DNA from: Pelagovum pacificum
GTDB lineage: Bacteria; Pseudomonadota; Alphaproteobacteria; Rhodobacterales; Rhodobacteraceae
Assembly: GCF_016134045.1 (NCBI RefSeq)
Contig: NZ_CP065915.1
Coordinates: 2,356,001-2,420,000, forward strand
Reading direction: 5' to 3'
DNA: 64,000 bases
Part shown: piece by piece, positions 31,812 through 44,715 of the stretch
How positions within the stretch are numbered: position 1 is the stretch's first letter
Layout of the letters: every line of letters starts with the position of its first letter
Program-made: the position numbers and the translations under genes
The notes under the pieces: model-generated
What the model saw: only the letters and a program-made list of their open reading frames with translations
The model's database searches: none
What the model was told of the DNA's origin: nothing

Positions 31812-32069
31812 TCAGGGGCGAGAAGATATACGCGCCTGATCCCGCATAACAGCGTAGTCCGCCAGCATCTCCGCGACCGCCGACCCCTCCGGCAGCAGGG
31901 CCAGTTCCTCGGCCGCCCGCGCCTGGAGATCCCGGCTGTACTCGACGACGGGCGGACACGCCCCGAGGCTGCCGACGTCAGAAGCGCCCGTCGCGCAGCT
32001 GCTCAGCCAGATCGTCGCGAGAACGAGGGCGACGCGTCGCGGCCTCGAGCATCTTGCGTTGGACATCAT
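31812..32069 (-). CDS. Rz1-like outer spanin lipoprotein (overlapping)
   Basis: This lipoprotein of about 85 residues has the lipobox LSSC after a basic, hydrophobic leader (RRVALVLATIWLSSC). The mature part with ACPPVVEYSRDLQARAAEEL is common in alphaproteobacterial phage lysis cassettes. Its first 92 bp overlap the end of the membrane protein gene at 31,978-32,235 in another frame. This nested arrangement is the hallmark of Rz/Rz1 spanin pairs, which fuse inner and outer membranes in the last step of lysis. ATG 32,069 or 32,066 may be used. Confidence 0.75.
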   Translation of the reverse strand: MMSNARCSRPRRVALVLATIWLSSCATGASDVGSLGACPPVVEYSRDLQARAAEELALLPEGSAVAEMLADYAVMRDQARISSRP

Positions 32070-32235
32070 TGGCCTTCTCCGTAGTCTCAAGGCGTTCGAC
32101 GAGGCGTCCCGCTCGCTCGCCGAACCGCCGAAGCGCGAGCACGAACAGCACCACGGCGAGGATGATGGCCCCGTAGCGCAGCGCCGCCTGCACCCACGGG
32201 CGGGCCGCGATCCCGGTGAGGAGCCCGGCGATCAC
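31978..32235 (-). CDS. Rz-like inner spanin
   Basis: This 85-residue protein has one N-terminal membrane helix (AALRYGAIILAVVLFVLAL) and then a charged coiled coil (RAGRLVERLETTEKANDVQR). This is the layout of an inner-membrane spanin subunit. Its start overlaps the endolysin stop by 4 bp, and its tail overlaps the lipoprotein gene. It could alternatively be a small holin-like protein, but the nested lipoprotein favours the spanin reading. Confidence 0.7.
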   Translation of the reverse strand: MIAGLLTGIAARPWVQAALRYGAIILAVVLFVLALRRFGERAGRLVERLETTEKANDVQRKMLEAATRRPRSRDDLAEQLRDGRF

Positions 32236-32906
32236 CGCCGGCCCCGCTTCCAGTCATCGAGGCGAGCATAGATGGTGACCGCGATGCCTCCGAGCGCCAC
32301 AAGGATGAACACCCAGGGCAGGGTGTCGAGATACGGCACAAGCGGCAGGATGGCGGATTGGGTCTCTGCCAGGACGCTCTGCGCGACCTCGACCCCGGCT
32401 GCGCCCAGCGTCGCCACGCCAGCCGCGCCACCGCCTTTCAAGGTGCGGCTCTCAGCCAGCGCTTCGCGTGCGGGCGGCGTCTCGGCTGCAAATGCCGTCG
32501 CCCGGACCGGGAACCGCTCGCCCCACTGACGCGCCGGGCCGAGGTCGACATGGATAAACCCCGAGCGCGGATAGAAGCCGAAGCCGAGGAACCCGACCTC
32601 CCGCGCTGCGGCCTCGAACGCCACCGGGTCGTGGTTCGTCATGGCGATGTCGAAGGCGGCGCCATCAAGGTGCTTGGATCGGGTCGCGCCGCCGACGGCG
32701 CGGTTGTGCTCTGGGCTGCGATAGGCCGAACGGACGATCAGCGGCTTGCCCAGCTGGTCGCGCAGCGCCTGCAGCTTGTCGAGCGCGGGTTCGCTGACCA
32801 GCAGTTTGCCAGTGCCCCGGCAGGCGATCTCAGCCGGGCTGAAATTCCGCCAGCGCCATGCGCTCTCCGGAACGTCGCGCCAATGGCGATAGAATGTCGT
32901 GGTCAT
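32232..32906 (-). CDS. M15-type endolysin with a C-terminal membrane anchor
   Basis: This 224-residue peptidoglycan peptidase of the M15/VanY type cleaves cell-wall cross-links during phage release. The N-terminal part contains WRWRNFSPAEIACRGTGKL. The zinc motifs are SKHLDGAAFD and FIHVDLG, with RSAYRSPEHN before them. A membrane helix near the end (PWVFILVALGGIAVTIYARL) and a basic tail suggest membrane release control, as in signal-arrest endolysins but at the other end. The start is ATG 32,906. A fragment of the same gene remains in copy A at 568-1,079. Confidence 0.88.
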   Translation of the reverse strand: MTTTFYRHWRDVPESAWRWRNFSPAEIACRGTGKLLVSEPALDKLQALRDQLGKPLIVRSAYRSPEHNRAVGGATRSKHLDGAAFDIAMTNHDPVAFEAAAREVGFLGFGFYPRSGFIHVDLGPARQWGERFPVRATAFAAETPPAREALAESRTLKGGGAAGVATLGAAGVEVAQSVLAETQSAILPLVPYLDTLPWVFILVALGGIAVTIYARLDDWKRGRR

Positions 32907-33066
32907 GGGGGTCCTCCGAAACGAGTTGTCGGCCCCTCGCAGGGCTCGGTGCGTTCGCCGTTCGGGAAGGTCCACTGGACCTTCTCGTCTGCCTTTCAGG
33001 CAGACCACGGCTCACCCCGCCACGAGGGCGGGTCATTGCGGGCTGATGAATGGGGATCGGGTACGG

Positions 33067-33354
33067 CTACGGGCCGCCGCCGAAGATCTTGAGCTTGATG
33101 GCGATGCCCGCGAGCAGCGCCAGCATGACGCCGGTGGTGATCATGCGCGCGGCAGTCTGCATGGCGGTGCGGCGCACCAGGCGGATGCAGTCCACCAGCG
33201 AGCGCAGATCGCGGATGTCGAGCGCGGCCTCGTCGCCGTCGAGGCCGACATCGGCGAGAGCGCGCTTCGCGCCTTCCTCGGCGGCCCGCGTCAGGATGGC
33301 CTCGAACTCGGCGTCGGGCATGCGGACGTAGCCCTCGGATCGGGGTGGGTTCAT
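33067..33354 (-). CDS. DUF6127 small phage membrane protein
   Basis: This 95-residue protein has a soluble N-terminal half (EGYVRMPDAEFEAILTRAAE) and one C-terminal membrane helix (MITTGVMLALLAGIAIKLKI). It matches the small DUF6127-type proteins found just before endolysin genes in alphaproteobacterial prophages, where a holin-like role is often suspected. ATG 33,354 starts 20 bp after the broken tail gene. No equivalent remains in copy A. Confidence 0.7.
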   Translation of the reverse strand: MNPPRSEGYVRMPDAEFEAILTRAAEEGAKRALADVGLDGDEAALDIRDLRSLVDCIRLVRRTAMQTAARMITTGVMLALLAGIAIKLKIFGGGP

Positions 33355-33374
33355 CAGGGTCCTCCTTCCGCCGC

Positions 33375-33867
33375 TCAGCCGATCTTGCAGCCCCAGAAGG
33401 ACGTGTGATCGGCGGCGAACTAACCGTCCGCTACCAGGAAATACCTCTGCAGCTCGACGGTATCGCCCGCCGTCAGCGGGACCATGGTCTGATGCCAGAT
33501 CGCGGTGGCGAGCGAGACGTGGGTGGCGGAGATTTCGCCAAGGGAGCCGCGGATTTCGGTGGTGCCGTTCAGGACGAGCTGCCCGCAAATTCAGGCAGTC
33601 GTGCTGGCGTTGACCTTGTACATGAGCGTCGCGCCGAAGAGGTAGGTGCCATCGACCGGGCGCCACGAAATGGTTGTTCGCGGCGTCGAAGGCCCCCTGA
33701 GCGTTATGGTCAGTGTTGTTGAGGCCGATCTTCGTCCAGGTCCCGACGCCGACATAGTTGTCGTAGCTGGTGTACGCCTTGACGCGCGGCAGCCGGGGCT
33801 GATCGACGATCCCGTTAGCGTTGTCGACGCTGAGCCAGTCGAAAAGGTGCTGACGTCGGCCGAGCCA
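33375..33867 (-). pseudogene. Broken C1q-like phage tail/fibre protein end
   Basis: The translated pieces read GTWTKIGLNNTDHNAQGAFD, NNHFVAP, then in another frame DGTYLFGATLMYKVNA. After a stop come ICGQLVLNGTTEIRGSLGEI and TMVPLTAGDTVELQRYF, and a further stop precedes FAADHTSFWGCKIG. This is the usual C-terminal C1q-like domain of DUF2793-type phage tail proteins, here with one frameshift and two in-frame stops. The 5' side is cut off at the recombinase gene. It is the only structural-gene trace in either copy and shows that the ancestor was a tailed phage. Confidence 0.8.
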
Positions 33868-33868
33868 C

Positions 33869-34564
33869 TCAGCTGATCCTCCCCAACAGATTACGGACGT
33901 TCGACACATGCCACTTCCCGCCTCGTCTGGTTCGCATGCCTCGAGCGTTCAACTCGTCGGCAAGGGCCCGCAGGGACGTGTGACCGGCCTGTTGAATGGC
34001 GCGTACGATGGGGGACAGCGCCATGGCGAAGTCATTTGCGTTGCCCGCCACAGTGACCCTCAGCGCTTCTCCGCCCTTGGCCGCCCGCCTGAGCGCCGCG
34101 GCCCCGTTCGGGTTGCCAAGCTTGACCCCGCGCGCCTTGGCCGCCGCCAGCGCTTCCTTGGTGCGCCGCGAGATCGCTTCGCGCTCCTGCTCCGCCACCA
34201 GCGCCATGATCCCGACCGTCAGGTTGTTGGCCTCCGGCATGTCGCAGGCGACGAACCGGACGCCACTGTCGCGGAGGGTGAGCAGGAAGGCGGCGTTGCG
34301 GCTCAGACGGTCGAGTTTGGCGATGACCAGCGTTGCGCCGGTGAGACGGGCCAGGTGGAGCGCCTTCTCCAGTTCGGGCCGGTCGTTTTTCCGTCCGCTT
34401 TCGACTTCGGTAAAGCGGCTCAGGATCAAAGCCCCCTGCCCTGACGCATAATCGTCGATCGCCTTTCGCTGCGCTTCGAGCCCGAGACCCGATCGCCCTT
34501 GCCTGGCCGTGGAGACCCGCTCGTAGGCCACGAGCCGGAGGATCGGGGCAGTATCGTTGACCAT
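33869..34564 (-). CDS. Small serine recombinase (resolvase type), copy B
   Basis: This is the counterpart of the recombinase at 3,180-3,881. The nucleophile motif YERVS, DRLSRNAAFL, the helix LVAEQEREAISRRTK and a C-terminal part ending GMRTRRGGKWHVSNVRNLL are present. The first 165 residues are almost the same as in copy A, but the last 70 differ (for example VTVAGNANDFAMALSPIVRA). The ATG at 34,564 lies in a perfect 14-bp inverted repeat. The gene sits directly between the tail-gene remnant and the small terminase genes. Confidence 0.9.
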   Translation of the reverse strand: MVNDTAPILRLVAYERVSTARQGRSGLGLEAQRKAIDDYASGQGALILSRFTEVESGRKNDRPELEKALHLARLTGATLVIAKLDRLSRNAAFLLTLRDSGVRFVACDMPEANNLTVGIMALVAEQEREAISRRTKEALAAAKARGVKLGNPNGAAALRRAAKGGEALRVTVAGNANDFAMALSPIVRAIQQAGHTSLRALADELNARGMRTRRGGKWHVSNVRNLLGRIS

Positions 34565-34604
34565 GTACACACCTGCCTGACGTTGGTTGCGCAGGTGTGT
34601 ACAT
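34563..34604. promoter_or_regulatory. Perfect 14-bp inverted repeat at recombinase start (copy B)
   Basis: The arms ATGTACACACCTGC and GCAGGTGTGTACAT are perfectly complementary and flank a 14-nt spacer (CTGACGTTGGTTGC). The left arm covers the recombinase start codon. Its place and symmetry fit a recombinase site or an autorepressor operator. Confidence 0.65.
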
Positions 34605-34641: not shown

Positions 34642-35154
34642 TCAGAGGCGCTCGCAGTCCGCGTCGAGCGTCAGCCCGGCCGGCTTGTCCTCGACAGGTG
34701 TGCCGTCCTTGTCCCGCAGCGTGCCGTCAGGCCCCCGCCAGACCAGTTCGATCCGGTTCAAGGTCGCTGTGCCATCTTCCGCCATCACATCAGACAGGCG
34801 CGTCCGGGAGGTCGGCGTGATCCCGAGCTCCGCCATGTAGCGCCCCATCAGCTCGAGCTGCTTGTTGGCGATCGCGATCCAGGGCGACTGCTGAACGTAG
34901 CCCGAAGGTGTCTTGATCAGCCTGGGGGTCTCTCGTTGTTTGCGGACCGCCTCGGCCCAGAGACTGTAGGATTGGCAATAGGCGGCGAAGGCAGCTCGGT
35001 CCGCCACGGTGAGGATGCCCGCCTCGTGGAGCGTGCGCGCGAGCCGACGCCACTCCTTGCGCGCATCCGCGTCGAGGTGGTCCGGACAGCGCGGCACGCC
35101 ACCCTCCTTGAGCCGCGGCGACATCGTCGGCTTGAGCTTTGGCCCGCGTCTCAT
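34642..35154 (-). CDS. P27-family phage terminase small subunit (copy B)
   Basis: The protein is identical to that encoded at 3,959-4,471, and the DNA differs by only a few bases. The same P27 features are seen (RRGPKLKP start, RCPDHLDADARKEWRR, TPSGYVQQSPWIAIANKQ). It overlaps the upstream gene by 4 bp. A working small subunit without a large terminase could package only with help from another phage. Confidence 0.9.
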   Translation of the reverse strand: MRRGPKLKPTMSPRLKEGGVPRCPDHLDADARKEWRRLARTLHEAGILTVADRAAFAAYCQSYSLWAEAVRKQRETPRLIKTPSGYVQQSPWIAIANKQLELMGRYMAELGITPTSRTRLSDVMAEDGTATLNRIELVWRGPDGTLRDKDGTPVEDKPAGLTLDADCERL

Positions 35155-35564
35155 GTCGTGGAGTCCGGCGCCTCGACGCCGATCCTCTGTTTGCGCTCTG
35201 CGATCTGGTCGAGCAACTTCGCCAGCGCGTCCGTCGCCTGCCCCTTGTGCGTCACGCTGGTCTCGCCGGAATGCTCGATGCCGGACGTCTCCTGCCAGCC
35301 CGCCTGTGTCTTGAGATAGAAGATAGACGAGGTGGTGCAGCCGGCACGGGCCTTCTGGAGCAGACCGTGGGCCACATGCGCGATGGCCTTCGCCTTACCC
35401 CTTTTGTAGTGCTCAAGAACCTCCGGATCTCGTTCGCAAATGGCACGGAAGGTATTGCGGGCGATGCCGAAGTAATCGGCGATCTGCTCCTGGTTCAGCA
35501 AGGCGGCGAGCGTCTCGACCTCGGAGCGCTGATGATCGTCGAGGGTGATCGGCTGCCGCCCCAT
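35151..35564 (-). CDS. HTH protein resembling a small terminase subunit (copy B)
   Basis: This is a 137-residue protein identical to the copy A product at 4,468-4,881, with the helix-turn-helix NQEQIADYFGIARNTF. Its place between the membrane protein and the P27 gene is unchanged. The complete identity between copies, compared with 80-90% elsewhere, points to recent duplication or gene conversion of this block. Confidence 0.65.
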   Translation of the reverse strand: MGRQPITLDDHQRSEVETLAALLNQEQIADYFGIARNTFRAICERDPEVLEHYKRGKAKAIAHVAHGLLQKARAGCTTSSIFYLKTQAGWQETSGIEHSGETSVTHKGQATDALAKLLDQIAERKQRIGVEAPDSTT

Positions 35565-35565
35565 C

Positions 35566-35787
35566 TCACGCTCCCTTTGCCGTCCAGCGGTCGAACAGGC
35601 GCCGCAGCGCGTAACTGCGCACCAGCGATACCGCCATGAAGGCGAGGCCCGTCAGCACCATCTGCCGGTGTTGAGCTTCGATGCCGACCAGGGGGAACAC
35701 GGCGAACTGCGTCGCAAGCGCGACGCCGTAGCCGACCACGACGTTCGCGATCGCCTCAACGAGCGACATCCGGCGCTCCTGGCTCAT
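35566..35787 (-). CDS. Small inner-membrane protein (copy B)
   Basis: This is a 73-residue two-helix protein equivalent to 4,883-5,104, with one residue change near the start (SQERRM instead of SQQRRM). Its ATG overlaps the methyltransferase stop. Function is unknown. Confidence 0.7.
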   Translation of the reverse strand: MSQERRMSLVEAIANVVVGYGVALATQFAVFPLVGIEAQHRQMVLTGLAFMAVSLVRSYALRRLFDRWTAKGA

Positions 35788-37052
35788 GCCGCCGCCTCCC
35801 CGCGTCGCTCGATCGCGGTCTCGGTGAACGTCGCTCCTCCGGACAGTTTGGCGTCCTGACCGGTGAAGGCCTGCCACCGCGTCACGGCCACATCGACATA
35901 GGCCGGGTCCAGTTCCATTGCGTAGCAGACCCTGCCCGCCGTCTCCGCCGCGATGAGGCTGCTGCCCGACCCGGAGAACGGCTCGTAGACCGCCTGTCCC
36001 GGGCTCGAATTGTTCAACATCGGCCGGCGCATGCACTCCACCGGCTTCTGCGTGCCGTGGACGGTCGCGGCGTCCTGATCCCGATTGGGGATGGTCCAAA
36101 GCGTGGATTGCGTGCGATCCCCCGACCAGTGTCCCTTCCCCCGTACGGCGTACCATGCCGGCTCATGCTGCCAGTGGTAGTGCCCCCGGCTGAGCACATG
36201 CCTGTCCTTGGCCCAGATGATCTGGCTGCGGATATCGAAGCCGGTGGCCACAAGACTGTTCGCCACGGTGGTTGCATGCAGCGCGCCATGCCAGACGTAG
36301 GCGACATCGCCGGGGAACAACGCCCAGGCCTCACGCCAGTCGGCGCGGTCATCATTGGCGACTTTGCCTGTGCGCCTGGTCTTCGACGCGCCGGTCTCGT
36401 TGCGCCAGGCCGGATCGTAGTTCACGCCGTAAGGCGGATCGGTCACCATGAGATGCGGCGTGACGCCATCGAGCAACCGATCGACGTCAGCCTTGCTGGT
36501 GGCATCCCCGCAGAGCAGCCGGTGCTGGCCCAGCAGCCAGAGGTCGCCGATCCGGCTGACAGGATTGGTCGGCGGGTCCGGCGTCACCTCCTCGCCGTCC
36601 TGAGCCTGTCCGCTCGCCAGCAGCGCATCCAGCTCCGCCCCGTCGAAGCCGAGACTGCCAAGGTCCACGCCGAGGTCTCCGAGGTCAGCGAGTTCGAGGC
36701 CGAGCAACTCCCGGTCCCATCCCGCCTGCTCCGTCAGACGGTTGTCCGCCAGGATGTAGGCCCGCTTCTGCGCCTCCGTCAGATGCGCCAGTTCGATCAC
36801 CGGAACGCTCGGGAGGCCCAGCTTCCGCGCGGCCAGCACGCGGCCATGCCCAGCGATGATGCCGCTGTCGCCATCGACCAGCACCGGGTTGTTGAATCCG
36901 AACTCGCGGATGGACCCGGCGATCAGCGCGACCTGCGCCTCGCTGTGCGTCCGGGCGTTGCTCGCATAAGGAACCAGGTCCGCAACCGGCCGATGTTCGA
37001 TCGACTGGGCTCCGATCGGCCCGCCTACCCGCTCTGCCACTGCCTGCGCCAT
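35784..37052 (-). CDS. ParB-domain DNA methyltransferase (copy B)
   Basis: This 422-residue enzyme is equivalent to that at 5,101-6,369. It has an N-terminal ParB-like domain with GHGRVLAARKLG, then the beta-class order DPPYG followed by FSGSGSS. It differs from copy A in short patches: the linker (GQAQDGEEVTPDPPTNPVSR), the WLLGQHRLL segment and LWTIPNRDQD. The target-recognition region between DPPYG and FSGSGSS is otherwise nearly the same, so both probably methylate the same site. Confidence 0.9.
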   Translation of the reverse strand: MAQAVAERVGGPIGAQSIEHRPVADLVPYASNARTHSEAQVALIAGSIREFGFNNPVLVDGDSGIIAGHGRVLAARKLGLPSVPVIELAHLTEAQKRAYILADNRLTEQAGWDRELLGLELADLGDLGVDLGSLGFDGAELDALLASGQAQDGEEVTPDPPTNPVSRIGDLWLLGQHRLLCGDATSKADVDRLLDGVTPHLMVTDPPYGVNYDPAWRNETGASKTRRTGKVANDDRADWREAWALFPGDVAYVWHGALHATTVANSLVATGFDIRSQIIWAKDRHVLSRGHYHWQHEPAWYAVRGKGHWSGDRTQSTLWTIPNRDQDAATVHGTQKPVECMRRPMLNNSSPGQAVYEPFSGSGSSLIAAETAGRVCYAMELDPAYVDVAVTRWQAFTGQDAKLSGGATFTETAIERRGEAAA

Positions 37053-39259: not shown

Positions 39260-40042
39260 ATGGGCCACAACACGCTCGGCGTAATACCGAACAACGTGAA
39301 GTGGCGGCGAGTGGTCGGGCTGCTCGGCTCAGACGCGGCCGGCCCGGAAGTCTTCGCAGCAAGCGCGCAAGCGGCCGAGCGGGATCTTCTGGACGCGTCC
39401 GATGATCCGGTCTTCGTCGAAGCCGTCAGGCTCCTGCTCGCGATCCCGGCTGCGGCAAGGTCGGAGGATTTCGGCGACGCACTGAGGCAACTGGACCTTT
39501 CCGTCGTGGATCAGCCAGAGTTGCTGGACATAATCGTTGCGACAGGCCAGCGGCTCGACAACGTGAGACGGTCGACCAACCGCCGCACCGACCTCGGCGA
39601 ACTCGCGGGCCGGGCGCTCACGGCCACGCTCTCTGACTGGATCGGTAATTCCTTGCCCGGGCTCTTCGAGGCGACGGCGGATGACGTCAGGCTCGCCGCA
39701 CGGACGCTGAGCTACTCCAAGCGGATCTCCGAACTCACCCGTGGGTATTTCGCGAACCTTACAAAGGCGACCCTCGCATATTGGCTGGAGCGCGATCTGA
39801 GCAACCACGTCGGGGCAGATGCACGGTTTGCCGCGCAGGGGAGCCGCAGCGCTTTCGACGAGGAACTTGGCGCGTACGCGCACGAGGCGACCAGAATCAT
39901 CAAGGAGTTCTCCAGCGGGTGGTACGGCAAGACACTGCACGACCGGGGCGGCTTCTCCGAGCACGATGCCGCCTCGTTCGGAGCAGTCAGCCTGAAGAAG
40001 ATCGTGGCAGAGTTAAAGGTGAAAAGGGTCGCTCATGGCTGA
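39260..40042 (+). CDS. Unknown 260-aa partner of the QueC-like enzyme
   Basis: I do not recognise this family. ATG 39,260 has a GGAGG site and gives an MGHNTLGVIPNN start; an open extension to 39,161 lacks such a site. The protein looks mostly helical and soluble (for example VFVEAVRLLLAIPAAARSED, ELAGRALTATLSDWIGNSLP, YFANLTKATLAYWLERDL). There is no signal peptide or catalytic motif. It overlaps the QueC-like gene by 8 bp, so they form one unit. Removal of Met would leave an N-terminal glycine, a feature I recall for partners of QueC-like enzymes in Qat and type IV CBASS defence. It is not QatB or a CD-NTase as far as I can see. Confidence 0.75.
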   Translation: MGHNTLGVIPNNVKWRRVVGLLGSDAAGPEVFAASAQAAERDLLDASDDPVFVEAVRLLLAIPAAARSEDFGDALRQLDLSVVDQPELLDIIVATGQRLDNVRRSTNRRTDLGELAGRALTATLSDWIGNSLPGLFEATADDVRLAARTLSYSKRISELTRGYFANLTKATLAYWLERDLSNHVGADARFAAQGSRSAFDEELGAYAHEATRIIKEFSSGWYGKTLHDRGGFSEHDAASFGAVSLKKIVAELKVKRVAHG

Positions 40043-41912
40043 ACCTGTAATCACCGTGTTCGAGGGCGATGACCGTCAGGAAATTCGGATCAACGGGCAG
40101 GATCCGACCTTCACCTTGGCGTTCGACGCGATCCGGGCCGCCGCCGTTACCGAGATCGATGACCTCGCGCTCGATTTCTTGGAGATCGCCGCCGCTGTGT
40201 TCGCCGCAGACAGTGGCTTCAAACGCGGCGGACCGACCCGGCCGCGAATGGGCGAAGACTGGCGTCGCGAGTTCCGGTTCCGCATTCCGGTCAGACGCTC
40301 CGAGATCTGGTCTAAGCCGGAGATCACCGACGCGCTTATCGCCGTGGCGGAGTTCCTCACCGAAGACAGCATGGCTTTCGAGTTCGCGGACGCAGAACCG
40401 GCCATACCGATTGATCCTTATTTCGACCTCGATACCAGCGGTGCGACGTACAAGGCAGACGAGGTCATCCTGTTCTCGGGCGGCCTAGACTCCTTTGCGG
40501 GGGCACTGGAAACGCTTTCGGCATCGACCGAACGGGTCATTCTGGTCACGCACCGGTCGGCTCAGAAGGTGATCCCACGGCAGGTAGAGCTCGGAGAAAT
40601 TCTAAAGAAGCGATTTGGGTCCCAGGTCATGCACCTGCAGGTTCAGGCGCGGCGGAAGGGCCAGCAGGGACGGGATGACACGCAACGATCCAGAACGCTG
40701 CTCTTCACGGCTCTCGGCCAGGCGGTCGCCCGAACATTCGGCGCCCGGCGCCTCAGCCTGTTCGAGAACGGCGTCATCAGCCACAATCTGCCGATCTCAC
40801 AACAGATCGTGGGCACCATGGCCACGCGCACGACGCACCCGCTCGGCCTCAAGCTCATGAACGACCTGCTGGGCCTCATCTGGCCCGGCGGGCCGTCCAT
40901 CCGCAATCGCTACGAATGGCTGACGAAGACGGATGTTGTCCGACGGGTTGCAGAATACGGAGCTGCCCGTGACATCCCGAGAACCGTGAGCTGCACAAGC
41001 ATTCGCGAGCAGACCAGTCGCCACACTCACTGCGGCGCCTGTACACAATGTCTCGACCGGCGGTTCGCCATTCTCGCGGCCGGACAAGCGGAACACGACA
41101 AGGCAGAGGACTACAAGACGGACATCCTGTTCGGCCCCCGCGATACGACGCGATCCCGCACATTCGCATTGGAGTGGACTCGGCACGCGATCCGCGTCGG
41201 TCAACTCGACCGCACGTCTGCCCTCACCGAGTTCGGGCAGGAGATCAGCCGCATCGTTTCAGGGAATCCCACGCTGTCGTCGCGGGAGGCCCTGGACAGG
41301 GTCCTCGATCTGCACCGGCGCCATTCCAGAGCGGTGCAAGACGTCATCGAGTCTGCGACCGTCACACAGGCAGGTGCGCTCGCCCGGCAGGCACTGCCCC
41401 GGACGTCGCTGCTCGTCCTGCATCTCAGCCAAGCGGGGCCGGAGTGTGCCGCCCCCTCTCGGCGGTTTGGCGACCTGTTCAGGCCAGCCAAATTAAACGA
41501 CGTCGAAGAGGTCGATATGGTCCCTGACCCTTCCGCGTTGCTCCGGGTCGCATTCTTCGAAGACGAGAACCACGTACTCGCGGTCGAGGGACTCGGGCGG
41601 GTCGAAGGAATGCCGGCCCGTGTCGCCCATGAACTGAAGCCCCAGTTCGACGTGGATCGCGCCGCGGGCCTGAAGCCCGATGACCACCGGTACGTGGAGC
41701 AACATCGGCTCGCACATCGGACAGGCCAGACCGCGGATGCCGCCCGGCAGAGCGTGCGTCGTTGCCGGCAGACACTCGCAAGCTTTTTCGAAGACGTCCA
41801 CGGTGAGCCCCCGCCACACGACCTCCTCATCGAGAGTCCGCGAGACCCGGCAACCCGAGGTTACCGGCTCGATCCGACCATGATCCCGATCTCGCGGGAC
41901 CGGGTGGACTGA
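40035..41912 (+). CDS. Large QueC-like PP-loop enzyme (candidate defence)
   Basis: This 625-residue protein has an N-terminal domain (1-140) of unknown fold. A QueC-like core with PP-loop SGGLDS at residues 148-153 and the NLPISQQIVG, ATRTTHP region follows (about 251-269). A zinc-type cysteine set is present at Cys320 and at CGACTQC, residues 333-339. The C-terminal part (370-625) is extra. True QueC of queuosine synthesis is about 230 residues, and no queD, queE or folE lies nearby, so this is not the housekeeping enzyme. QueC-like proteins occur in Qat (QatC) and type IV CBASS defence. Here only one unknown partner is present, without an ATPase, TatD nuclease or CD-NTase. It sits in the cargo slot of copy B. 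Confidence 0.85.
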   Translation: MAEPVITVFEGDDRQEIRINGQDPTFTLAFDAIRAAAVTEIDDLALDFLEIAAAVFAADSGFKRGGPTRPRMGEDWRREFRFRIPVRRSEIWSKPEITDALIAVAEFLTEDSMAFEFADAEPAIPIDPYFDLDTSGATYKADEVILFSGGLDSFAGALETLSASTERVILVTHRSAQKVIPRQVELGEILKKRFGSQVMHLQVQARRKGQQGRDDTQRSRTLLFTALGQAVARTFGARRLSLFENGVISHNLPISQQIVGTMATRTTHPLGLKLMNDLLGLIWPGGPSIRNRYEWLTKTDVVRRVAEYGAARDIPRTVSCTSIREQTSRHTHCGACTQCLDRRFAILAAGQAEHDKAEDYKTDILFGPRDTTRSRTFALEWTRHAIRVGQLDRTSALTEFGQEISRIVSGNPTLSSREALDRVLDLHRRHSRAVQDVIESATVTQAGALARQALPRTSLLVLHLSQAGPECAAPSRRFGDLFRPAKLNDVEEVDMVPDPSALLRVAFFEDENHVLAVEGLGRVEGMPARVAHELKPQFDVDRAAGLKPDDHRYVEQHRLAHRTGQTADAARQSVRRCRQTLASFFEDVHGEPPPHDLLIESPRDPATRGYRLDPTMIPISRDRVD

Positions 41913-42137: not shown

Positions 42138-42350
42138 ATGTCATACGCGTCCATCCCCCAGAATCCAGACCGCATGCTCAGCGAGCGCGCCCTTGCCGCC
42201 CGGTGGGTCCTCTCCACGAGAACGCTCCAGAGGTGGCGCAGCGACGGGTACGGCCCAGCGTTCCTAAACATCGGCGGGAGTATCCGCTACCGGCTTGGCG
42301 ACATCCTCGCCTACGAGGCGCAGCATCGCCAGGGCGGCGATGACCTGTAA
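42138..42350 (+). CDS. Excisionase-like helix-turn-helix protein (copy B)
   Basis: This 70-residue DNA-binding protein has LSERALAARWVLSTRTLQRW as helix-turn-helix and GPAFLNIGGSIRYRLGDI as wing. It matches the position of the protein at 8,366 but shares only the core with it. It may bind the repeated motifs just upstream and control the integrase block or excision. Confidence 0.8.
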   Translation: MSYASIPQNPDRMLSERALAARWVLSTRTLQRWRSDGYGPAFLNIGGSIRYRLGDILAYEAQHRQGGDDL

Positions 42351-42420
42351 CTGGAGAACAGGCGAAGTCGCGGGCAATCGCGACCCGGCCGTCGGACGCA
42401 ATCCACTGCCCGCATGCGCC

Positions 42421-42588
42421 ATGAGGCCACCAGAACGCCGGGCCGAGCTCTGCAGGCTGCTCGCTCTCGGCCTCGTCCGGCTCCATGCGCGCAACCGGCA
42501 ACTCTCTGCGTCCGATGGAGAATCTCCGCTACACTCTCCGCCCGACCAGAGCGGTGATGCAACTCCAACCAATCGGAGAGACGCATGA
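42421..42588 (+). CDS. Small conserved ORF coupled to DUF2924 (copy B)
   Basis: This 55-residue product has the same core as 8,593-8,784 (ERRAELCRLLALGLVRLHAR and the PTNRRDA end). Its stop overlaps the DUF2924 start. A longer frame from 42,295 exists, but only the part from 42,421 is conserved with copy A. Confidence 0.5.
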   Translation: MRPPERRAELCRLLALGLVRLHARNRQLSASDGESPLHSPPDQSGDATPTNRRDA

Positions 42589-43031
42589 CCGATCCCATCC
42601 CCGCGCGACTGGCCGCCCTCAAGACCACGCCGACGCCCGACCTGAAGCAGCAGTGGCGCGACCTGTTCGACAGCGAGCCGCCGCCCTTCAATCGCCGCTA
42701 CCTGGAGAGCCGCCTCGCCTACCGCATCCAGGAACTGGCCTATGGCGGTCTGAAACCCGAAACGATCCGGCGGTTGGAGCGGCTGGGTGAGGACCTGGAC
42801 GGCGGGGATCGCCACAAACGCTACATCCGTACGGATCGGATGCCCATCGCCGGGACGCGGTTGATCCGGGAGTGGCAGGGCGTGGAACACGTCGTCACCG
42901 TCACGAAGGACGGCTTCGAGTGGCAGGGGCGACCCTACAAATCGTTGTCCGCCATCGCCCGCGGCATCACCGGCACGCGCTGGAACGGCTGGGTGTTCTT
43001 CGGCCTCAAGAACCAGAGGAGCCGGACATGA
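42585..43031 (+). CDS. DUF2924 protein (copy B)
   Basis: This 148-residue DUF2924 protein differs from that at 8,781 at two positions only. It overlaps the genes on both sides by 4 bp. The family is tied to large serine recombinases in alphaproteobacterial prophages; a helper role is inferred. Confidence 0.9.
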   Translation: MTDPIPARLAALKTTPTPDLKQQWRDLFDSEPPPFNRRYLESRLAYRIQELAYGGLKPETIRRLERLGEDLDGGDRHKRYIRTDRMPIAGTRLIREWQGVEHVVTVTKDGFEWQGRPYKSLSAIARGITGTRWNGWVFFGLKNQRSRT

Positions 43032-44335
43032 CCGAGGTCAAGATCAAGCGCCGCTGCGCGATCTACACACGCAAATCCTCCGAGGAAGGGCTGGAGCAGG
43101 AGTTCAACTCGCTTCACGCTCAGCGAGAGGCCTGCGAGGCCTACATCGCCAGCCAGCGCTCCGAGGGCTGGGTGCTGGTCCGCGATCAGTATGACGACGG
43201 CGGTATCTCCGGCGGCACGCTGGAACGCCCCGGCCTGAAGCGGCTGCTGGAGGACATCGCGGACGGGCTGGTCGATGTCGTCGTGGTCTACAAGATCGAC
43301 CGCCTGAGCCGCTCGCTGGCCGACTTCGCCAAGCTCGTGGAGGTGTTCGACCGAAACGGCGTGACCTTCGTCTCGGTCACGCAGTCCTTCAACACCACCA
43401 CGTCGATGGGGCGGCTGACGCTGAACATCCTGCTGTCCTTCGCCCAGTTCGAGCGCGAGGTGACGGCCGAACGCATCCGCGACAAGGTCGCCGCCAGTCG
43501 GAAGAAGGGCATGTGGATGGGCGGGGTGCCGCCCTACGGCTATCGGGTCGAGAACCGGAAGCTGGTGGTCGACGAAGAAGCCGCCGCGCATGTGCGCTGG
43601 ATCTTTGCGCGCTTCCTCGAGATCGGCTCGGGGACCGAACTGGCGCGCGAGGTTGGGACGCGCGGAATCCGGACGCCGCGCGGCAATCGGATCGACAAAA
43701 AGTACCTCTACCGCATGCTCAACAACCGCGCCTACATCGGCGAGGCGGTGCACAAGGGCGAAAGCTATCCCGGTGAGCACGACGCGATCATCGACCGCGA
43801 AGCGTGGGATCGCGTCCACGCCATCCTGCAGGAAAGCCCCCGCAAGCGCGCCGCCCGGACTCGCGCCGACACGCCCGCGCTGCTGAAGGGGCTGCTGTTC
43901 GGACCCGATGGCGCGGCGTTCTCGCCGACGCATACTCGCAAGGGCTACAAGCTCTACCGGTACTATGTCAGCCAGACCGTGCTGAAGCATGGCGCCGGAT
44001 CGTGCCCGGTCGGCCGAGTGCCCGCGGGCGAGATCGAAGCGGCCGTCATCAAGCAGCTGCGCGTCGTATTCCGCCAGCCGGAGATTGTGGCGTGCACCTG
44101 GAAGGCGGCACGCGGACATGCTGACGACATCACTGAGGCCGACGCTCGCGTGGCCCTGCAGCCACTCGACCCGCTGTGGGACCAGCTCTTCCCGGCAGAA
44201 CAAGCCCGCATCGTTGCACTGCTGGTCGAGCGCGTGGAGATCGGCACAGACGGTCTCAACGTCCGGCTTCGCGTCGACGGACTCGGCGGTCTAGCCCGCG
44301 AGATGCTTGCCGGTGGCATCGAGGCCGCAGCGTGA
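43028..44335 (+). CDS. Large serine recombinase (integrase), copy B
   Basis: This 435-residue integrase is equivalent to 9,224-10,531. The nucleophile motif YTRKS, YKIDRLSRS, FAQFEREVTAERIRDK and the Recombinase domain through RIDKKYLYRMLNNRAYIGE are all present. The first 170 residues are nearly identical to copy A and the end is more variable (for example QPEIVACTWKAARGHADDIT). Its stop overlaps the GTG start of the last HTH gene. Both integrases appear intact, so either could act on both elements. Confidence 0.93.
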   Translation: MTEVKIKRRCAIYTRKSSEEGLEQEFNSLHAQREACEAYIASQRSEGWVLVRDQYDDGGISGGTLERPGLKRLLEDIADGLVDVVVVYKIDRLSRSLADFAKLVEVFDRNGVTFVSVTQSFNTTTSMGRLTLNILLSFAQFEREVTAERIRDKVAASRKKGMWMGGVPPYGYRVENRKLVVDEEAAAHVRWIFARFLEIGSGTELAREVGTRGIRTPRGNRIDKKYLYRMLNNRAYIGEAVHKGESYPGEHDAIIDREAWDRVHAILQESPRKRAARTRADTPALLKGLLFGPDGAAFSPTHTRKGYKLYRYYVSQTVLKHGAGSCPVGRVPAGEIEAAVIKQLRVVFRQPEIVACTWKAARGHADDITEADARVALQPLDPLWDQLFPAEQARIVALLVERVEIGTDGLNVRLRVDGLGGLAREMLAGGIEAAA

Positions 44336-44715
44336 CCCGCGGGGATGCAATCCCCGAAACTATGACGCTTCACGTCCCGTTCCGCGTCGTGAAGCGTGGC
44401 GGGCGGAAGGAGATGCAGTTGCCCGATGGCGCCGCGCAGACGCGTCCGAGGGACAACACGTTGGTGAAGGCGCTGGCGCGGGCGTTCCGCTGGAAGAGGA
44501 TGCTCGAGTCCGACGAGTTCGCCACCATCGCCGAACTGGCCGAACGCGAGGGGATCGCGCCCTCCTACATGACCCGCGTCTTGCGCCTGACACTGCTCGC
44601 GCCCGACATCGTCGAGGCGATCCTGGACGGCAGGCAGGGGTCAGAGGTATCGCTGACGCGCGTTCTGGAGCCGTTCCCGCTTGAGTGGGAGGACCAGCCG
44701 GTTCTCTTCGGCTAG
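44332..44715 (+). CDS. ParB/KorB-like HTH protein (copy B)
   Basis: This 127-residue DNA-binding protein is equivalent to 11,025-11,438, with ATIAELAEREGIAPSYMTRV as helix-turn-helix. GTG 44,332 overlaps the integrase stop; ATG 44,362 is the start of the strictly conserved part. The homology between copies A and B ends about 50 bp after this gene. Confidence 0.75.
   Translation: MTRGDAIPETMTLHVPFRVVKRGGRKEMQLPDGAAQTRPRDNTLVKALARAFRWKRMLESDEFATIAELAEREGIAPSYMTRVLRLTLLAPDIVEAILDGRQGSEVSLTRVLEPFPLEWEDQPVLFG

Follow-up and report, generated by a model that had tools for sequence, protein, structure and literature searches.

A Two-Gene Unit in Pelagovum pacificum

The subject of this analysis is a pair of overlapping genes of Pelagovum pacificum (Rhodobacteraceae), located in a stretch of 64,000 nucleotides (NCBI RefSeq assembly GCF_016134045.1, contig NZ_CP065915.1, positions 2,356,001 to 2,420,000 of the forward strand), which is called the window here and whose own numbering is used throughout. 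The pair encodes a protein of 260 aa (the partner) and a PP-loop protein of 625 aa (the enzyme) and, to judge from sequence comparison, it is most likely a Qat-type N-terminal ligase cassette lacking QatA and QatD. Both open reading frames (ORFs), which share 8 bp, were found at the coordinates given in a preliminary description of this DNA made from the sequence alone, and the PP-loop motif SGGLDS and the four cysteines that it had reported were present in the enzyme. Other loci and genomes are designated by L and G numbers. The features of the unit, all on the + strand, are the following:

39260..40042, +, partner gene (putatively QatB-like, 260 aa; proposed N-terminal substrate); ATG after GGGAGGAGGG, protein start MGHNTLGVIPNNVKW
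40035..41912, +, enzyme gene (long-form QatC-like PP-loop enzyme, 625 aa)
40143..41084, +, QatC-homologous part of the enzyme, residues ~37-350: N-terminal extension and QueC core, with SGGLDS 148-153, TRTTHP 264-269, and Cys 320/333/336/339
41529..41909, +, C-terminal extra module of the enzyme, residues ~499-625, ending LLIESPRDPATRGYRLDP...; not in standard QatC; possibly winged-helix-like, from weak helix-turn-helix (HTH) matches in relatives

The Enzyme Has a QatC-Type Core

The enzyme matched QueC in Pfam (PF06508, 27.6 bits, cut-off 22) and QatC in PADLOC (177 bits). When compared with the sequences of the PDB, residues ~37-350 matched the QatC structures 9vlk/9vll (E 1.4e-31) and 9zee/9zef (E 6.1e-30), and a profile built from 86 enzyme homologues reached 5.4e-51 against PDB QatC; no match was obtained in these searches past residue 350, residues ~351-498 included. 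By these comparisons, the core of the enzyme is of the QatC type.

The conservation of the active site was assessed in 43 long-form rows, a set that includes the window and at least four genomes represented by two rows each. Residues S148, D152, S153, R220, T267, H268, K298, and the four cysteines were present in all 43, T264 in 40 (Ser in the other three) and T266 in 42 (Ser in one). In the alignment to the PDB sequences, T264 and T266 correspond to T278 and T280 of QatC, which are invariant in QatC and take the place of the Tyr/Asp that recognize 7-carboxy-7-deazaguanine (CDG) in Cap9 and QueC (PMC13279940). The enzyme thus has Thr at the positions aligned with the Tyr/Asp site of canonical QueC.

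Furthermore, in a tree of the core region (43 rows) all 27 long forms fell on one side of a single branch with a support of 80/100, and 83% of 200 bootstrap trees recovered them as a single group. The 13 QatC rows, from several phyla, lay outside this side and were not themselves one group; long branches, Leptospira among them, were placed unsurely. The long-form enzymes measured about 594-706 aa, compared with about 400-466 aa for the QatC chains and genes examined.

The Partner Has an Invariant Gly2-His3

The partner gave no match above cut-off in Pfam, PADLOC, NCBIfam, or PHROGs; its best match among PDB sequences (E 0.026) was unrelated, and a second search of them returned none. Its homologues numbered 237, and most of the 120 matches listed had a length of 258-261 aa. 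Gly2, His3, and Trp15 were invariant in the 99 close homologues, and Gly2, His3, and Leu6 were kept in all 39 diverse homologues, down to 24% identity; in the latter set Pro10 was nearly invariant and Trp15 was missing in one clade. The MGHN start had been singled out in the preliminary description as one that would expose an N-terminal glycine, and the invariance of Gly2-His3 agrees with it, since an invariant Gly2 is what would be expected of a substrate of N-terminal modification.

An alignment of QatB (48 rows) showed an invariant MGTS start and Pro16, with a nearly invariant Trp18. The diverse partner profile was aligned to QatB by hhalign with P 1.1e-4, and to 115 QatB rows with P 1.2e-4 and a score of 38.5; a pooled partner profile (125 rows) gave P 5.6e-4 and a score of 34.1. 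The best score among the controls, which consisted of ten other families of the same elements, reversed profiles, and ten column shuffles, was 21.6. A distant kinship of the partner with QatB is probable, these profile scores making it likely without proving it.

The Two Genes Occur Together, With No QatA or QatD Detected Beside Them

A search of genome contigs with patterns of the partner, taken from close homologues so that the resulting set leans to this lineage, returned 31 loci, in all of which the enzyme gene followed on the same strand. The spacing was -8 to 28 bp after extension of the alignment, except in L016 (343 bp, with an in-frame stop in the partner), and an 8-bp overlap was found in 15 of the 31 when the alignment was extended to residue 1. 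In the opposite direction, a search of 394 genomes of the family with the enzyme gave matches in 32. The partner lay directly upstream in 20 of the 30 enzyme-found loci examined, and the other ten comprised seven short QatC, a third type (L062), one locus truncated where its contig ends (L053), and a scrambled one (L051); with the window's own locus counted, pairing was therefore seen in 20 of the 22 loci assigned to the long form. In IMG/VR, the enzyme was present in all 23 viral contigs found with the partner, and one match to the partner was obtained in plasmid records. These three sets (31, 22, and 23) overlap, and in each of them the co-occurrence that the preliminary description had proposed to count was nearly complete. 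The two-gene arrangement is not due to chance, as the length of the partner is kept and the enzyme gene lies downstream in 31/31 loci.

The preliminary description had also remarked on the lack of an ATPase, a TatD nuclease, and a CD-NTase, and none of them was detected beside the pair. When QatA, QatB, and QatD of locus L063 were used as queries against L001-L152, no pair locus was matched with this one reference set, some of the loci being short, and neither an ATPase nor a TatD nuclease appeared as a regular member of the unit. The same queries matched only the short-QatC loci and L072 (G076:C4), which is what is left of a broken qatABCD-like locus whose qatC-like gene contains a stop. All four qat genes were found in six of the seven short-QatC genomes of the same family, and C and D only in the seventh (G255). 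A QatA encoded elsewhere in the P. pacificum genome was ruled out: its only KAP match lay ~1 Mb from the pair and had no tblastn likeness to the QatA of L063, the reference used. Neither Pfam nor PADLOC gave a CD-NTase match for the partner, and Cap10 (a TGT-family protein) was not among the annotated recurring neighbors, part of which were scanned.

The Long Enzymes End in Differing Modules

The last ~125 residues of the window enzyme end LLIES...RGYRLDP. The GYRL ending is like that of OmpR-type domains and, mainly from this ending, the module may tentatively be read as a winged helix.

A different module was found in a distant phylum, on a plasmid of Leptospira noguchii (L164:12001-14645), where the partner-enzyme pair adjoins an IS982 transposase. 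The Leptospira partner starts MGHERLGILPKTRSW, with Gly2-His3 kept, and the enzyme carries a C-terminal DpnII-MboI nuclease domain (PF18742, E 1.2e-9, 38.3 bits, cut-off 27); no phage gene was present among the 25 listed features of the locus. A third module was observed in a group of enzymes of 704-706 aa (L029, L031, L144-L147); in the single member scanned, no Pfam family was assigned to it.

Proposed Function of the Pair

Among the nearest described systems is qatABCD (QatB and QatC; PDB 9vlk/9vll and 9zee/9zef), which shares with the pair a PP-loop/QueC core with an N-terminal extension, the SGGxDS, T-R-T, and zinc cysteine motifs in the enzyme, and an MG-starting partner just upstream. 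The pair differs from it in that QatA and QatD were not detected, in a partner whose MGH start and short tail contrast with the MGTS and 30-90 aa of QatB, and in a longer enzyme with a C-terminal module on a separate branch. According to the available text of the QatC study, QatB and QatC without A and D suffice against lambda, and defense is lost in the QatB G2D and QatC PP-loop mutants (PMC13279940). In the available text of another report, about one third of a QatC cluster has qatA and qatD as neighbors, and the frequency of qatB is comparable (PMC13329287). Type IV of the cyclic oligonucleotide-based antiphage signaling system (CBASS) also combines a QueC-like enzyme, Cap9, with an MG-starting partner; N-terminal ligation has been shown for Cap9 and is here proposed for the pair. 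The partner, however, had no CD-NTase match, and the enzyme has Thr instead of Tyr/Asp and is much longer.

We favor, with a confidence somewhat better than even, the reading of the pair as a self-sufficient QatBC-type anti-phage cassette belonging to a distinct lineage without QatA and QatD, for which both defense and chemistry are inferred. The QatC core would bind ATP at the SGGLDS loop and activate a carboxylate. Removal of Met1 would expose the N-terminal glycine of the partner, which would form a complex with the enzyme and whose conserved tail, MGHxxLxxLPxxxxW, would thread this glycine into the active site, where the activated carboxylate would be joined to it. CDG made by the host is probably not the transferred group. 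Modified partner and enzyme would then interfere with an infecting phage, and the C-terminal module could supply the target or effector function, as DNA binding in the window form and as DNA cleavage in the Leptospira form, a function that in qatABCD perhaps comes from QatA (a DNA-binding ATPase) and QatD (a predicted nuclease).

Several observations weigh against this reading. With regard to the enzyme, its NCBIfam score for QatC (200 bits) is under the NCBIfam cut-off of 280, no counterpart of the QatB-binding C-terminal helices of QatC was matched in it, and the support of the long-form branch is below the 95/80 mark. As for the partner, its tail is short (P10 and W15, against P16 and W18 in QatB), and its likeness to QatB comes from broad profiles, the close-homologue profile having given a probability value (Prob) of 1.1 and a score of 20.9. 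The signals of DNA binding at the C terminus are weak: among 26 diverse C-terminal fragments, HTH_11 was matched in six (best E 2e-4), Sigma70_r4_2 in five, and Trans_reg_C in three, no domain was matched in the window's own fragment in that scan, and the C-terminal profile compared with the PDB matched sigma factors best (E 0.008 and 0.011), followed by the TcpP winged helix (E 0.029). Additionally, no match to the partner was found in 50,697 phage records, several copies of the pair are broken or split (L016, L018, L025, L030, and G035, the last with an in-frame TGA), and QatA and QatD are needed against some phages, Bas25 and Bas39 (PMC13279940).

No description of a long Qat form without A and D was found in literature titles and abstract openings. 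The preliminary description had spoken of a separate, possibly undescribed system; the regular two-gene unit holds, but a separate origin does not, given the QatC-type core, the remote QatB signal, and the published action of QatBC alone. What would be new within the known Qat kind is a QatBC lineage without A and D, with differing C-terminal modules and often on phage-derived elements. As the available text of Gao et al. leaves open the reaction of QatC and the contribution of QatA and QatD (PMC13279940), a lineage in which only B and C parts were found would provide naturally occurring two-gene systems in which the N-terminal chemistry could be worked out. With C fused to differing end modules, this lineage also points to a C-terminal module that has assumed the effector work.

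The Host Element

On the two sides of the pair in the window stand a ParB-methylase gene and an AlpA-like gene, both part of a phage-derived element that recurs in other loci. This position is in keeping with the cargo slot assigned to the pair in the preliminary description. The other genes of this element were named mainly through the annotated proteins of L003 and L020, as follows:

33869..34570, -, small serine resolvase (L003 homologue: Resolvase)
34642..35124, -, terminase-small-subunit-like protein (L003 homologue)
35151..35564, -, second terminase-small-subunit-like protein (L003 homologue)
35566..35787, -, DUF7220-like small protein (L020 homologue)
35784..37052, -, ParB-like N-terminus fused to a DNA methyltransferase (L003 homologue)
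42138..42350, +, AlpA-like helix-turn-helix protein (L003 homologue HTH_17, excisionase-like)
42585..43031, +, DUF2924-like protein (by-eye likeness to the L003 DUF2924 protein)
43028..44335, +, large serine recombinase (L003 homologue; start deduced from a 4-bp overlap, gene caller start 42920)
44332..44715, +, small recombinase-associated protein (L003 homologue phrog_14161)

To the left of the resolvase (window 31978-33909), a peptidase/endolysin-like gene (phrog_17373) and small genes common to three or four related loci were also observed.

The recurring neighbors were counted in the 31 loci plus the window (n = 32) with a home-made gene caller that missed some genes. They were the recombinase group (28/32), the terminase small subunit (TerS)/ParB-methylase group (26/32), a primase family of ~770 aa (22/32, some of them fragments), the AlpA-like gene (21/32), DUF7220 (17/32), DUF2924 (14/32), and the second TerS (12/32). 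In 20 larger loci of the family genomes, partly from the same genomes, a recombinase-group gene was found in nine and an AlpA-like gene in 15. The gap between the AlpA-like and DUF2924-like genes of the window (42350-42585) contains no primase, and the own genome had no match to the ~770-aa primase family at E 1e-40.

The gene content of L003 (~20 kb) resembles that of phage satellites, with no head genes called. With the phage-inducible chromosomal islands and other satellites (as far as described in the available text of PMC6092414) it shares an integrase-type recombinase, an AlpA-like regulator, a primase, and TerS. The pair elements, known here from their genes alone, differ from satellites in the large serine recombinase, DUF2924, and the ParB-methylase, in the head genes of the relative L028, and in the window by the lack of a primase. 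In L028, the pair is located in a prophage with a large terminase, a portal, a protease, and a major head protein. By gene content, many copies of the pair are in prophages or satellite-like elements.

Two related elements were found without partner or enzyme: L124, with the resolvase, TerS, DUF7220, second TerS, ParB-methylase, AlpA, and large recombinase, and L123, with DUF7220, a ParB-type methylase, the primase, and DUF2924. In place of the pair, their slots (L123:12448-15538 and L124:12826-15677) hold two proteins without a PADLOC match (398 and 388 aa, and 413 and 316 aa, respectively), together with a third protein of ~200 aa that is sigma-like by eye. Since the slot can thus be occupied by other genes, the pair gives the impression of cargo that can be exchanged. 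An empty insertion site was not found in relatives, and the best right-flank match starts at a contig end, so the borders of the element are undefined.

The company of recombinase-group and AlpA-like genes in many of these loci would also suit a pair that serves the element and not the cell, by superinfection exclusion or by control of excision or of a helper phage, with the C-terminal module regulating genes of the element. This explanation was considered unlikely, as related elements do without the pair, which is found in addition in a prophage with head genes and on the Leptospira plasmid with no phage gene among its listed features.

Supply of Deazaguanine in Carrier Genomes

The own genome (99.98% complete) gave no match to QueC, QueD, or QueE at E 0.001, and Tgt was present. 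The QueC search missed the pair enzyme too, so this absence holds only for true QueC, which scores >100 bits elsewhere. The pair enzyme has in common with canonical QueC the PF06508 match, the PP-loop, and the zinc cysteines, but it has a partner protein and extensions on both sides. No queuosine gene was found among the recurring neighbors; relatives in queuosine operons, an outcome that the preliminary description had considered, were not seen. A role as the host queuosine enzyme was ruled out by these neighbors, by the lack of pathway matches in the own genome, and by Thr at the CDG site.

The search was extended to 47 genomes, namely 22 long-form carriers (four with partial enzyme matches only), seven qatABCD carriers, two of the third type, and 16 non-carriers. 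QueE was matched in two of them (G388 and G327), which were also the two detected among 29 genomes searched with another QueE model; the two models detected QueE in 8/14 and 10/14 control genomes. QueD was matched in five (G004, G017, G106, G327, and G388), near full-length QueC in five (G388, G327, G208, G010, and G311, the last with a stop), and Tgt in all 47. The enzyme was near full-length in 18 of the long-form carriers (that of G035 with an in-frame stop), and in these the counts were 0/18 for QueE, 3/18 for QueD, and 1/18 for QueC. The non-carriers had no QueE either (0/16), which makes its absence a feature of the family with no enrichment in carriers. Since QueE was unmatched in 18/18 of these carriers, CDG, the group used by Cap9, is unlikely to be made by the hosts, and the pair seems able to persist without a host supply of it. 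The scarcity of recognizable CDG-pathway genes in most carriers argues against a requirement for host CDG as co-substrate, and for this reason the pair offers a test of what the enzyme really attaches.

A true deazaguanylation of the partner, such as that of the CD-NTase by Cap9, with CDG taken up or made by a missed enzyme, was judged rather improbable. It would agree with the QueC fold and the N-terminal glycine, which are also found in type IV CBASS (PMC11996544, from the text available). Moreover, the presence of Tgt in every genome suggests that the hosts use outside deazaguanines, and both the imperfect sensitivity of the QueE models and the failure of the QueC search to report the pair enzyme leave room for a missed enzyme. 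On the other side stand the lack of a QueE match in 45/47 and 27/29 genomes, that of QueD in 42/47, and the replacement of the CDG-recognizing Tyr/Asp by Thr, as in QatC (PMC13279940). The attachment of a deazaguanine foreseen in the preliminary description is therefore retained as to the N-terminal glycine and doubtful as to the deazaguanine, given this Thr and the missing QueC, QueD, and QueE matches in the own genome. No uptake of CDG itself is known.

A more speculative version, to which only a small probability was assigned, is that on infection the enzyme would join a deazaguanine of the phage to the partner N terminus and thereby switch on the C-terminal DNA-targeting module, the alarm being silent in the uninfected cell. 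More likely than such an alarm is a novel modification of the protein N terminus in which no deazaguanine takes part. Finally, the undetected QatA and QatD and the broken copies named above could point to a remnant of QatBC that lost qatA and qatD and is now decayed or carried along neutrally. This is very improbable in view of the nearly invariant catalytic residues, the conservation of N terminus and length among partners with as little as 24% identity, the common extra module, and the grouping apart from QatC.

Related QueC-Like Operons

Other types of QueC-like operons were encountered. In a plasmid of Bradyrhizobium japonicum (L166:1602-7355), a protein of 1041 aa with a CHAT match (24.2 bits, cut-off 24) was accompanied by a Gly/Ser-rich, MGSG-starting protein of 274 aa, a QueC-like protein of 446 aa, and an ASCH-domain protein; this operon is possibly a protease-armed relative. 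A further type (L070:6768-10444 and L071:6597-10273) consists of a protein of 177-178 aa, a QueC-like protein with SDGMDS replacing SGGxDS, an HTH and M78 peptidase protein (domains scanned in L071), and a protein of 185-191 aa. A locus in the unverified record of Listeria phage LM 4-14-1 (L165:7042-9588) is qatBCD-like by eye, with an MGTN-starting protein of 206 aa, a QueC-like protein of 400 aa, and a TatD-like protein of 259 aa.

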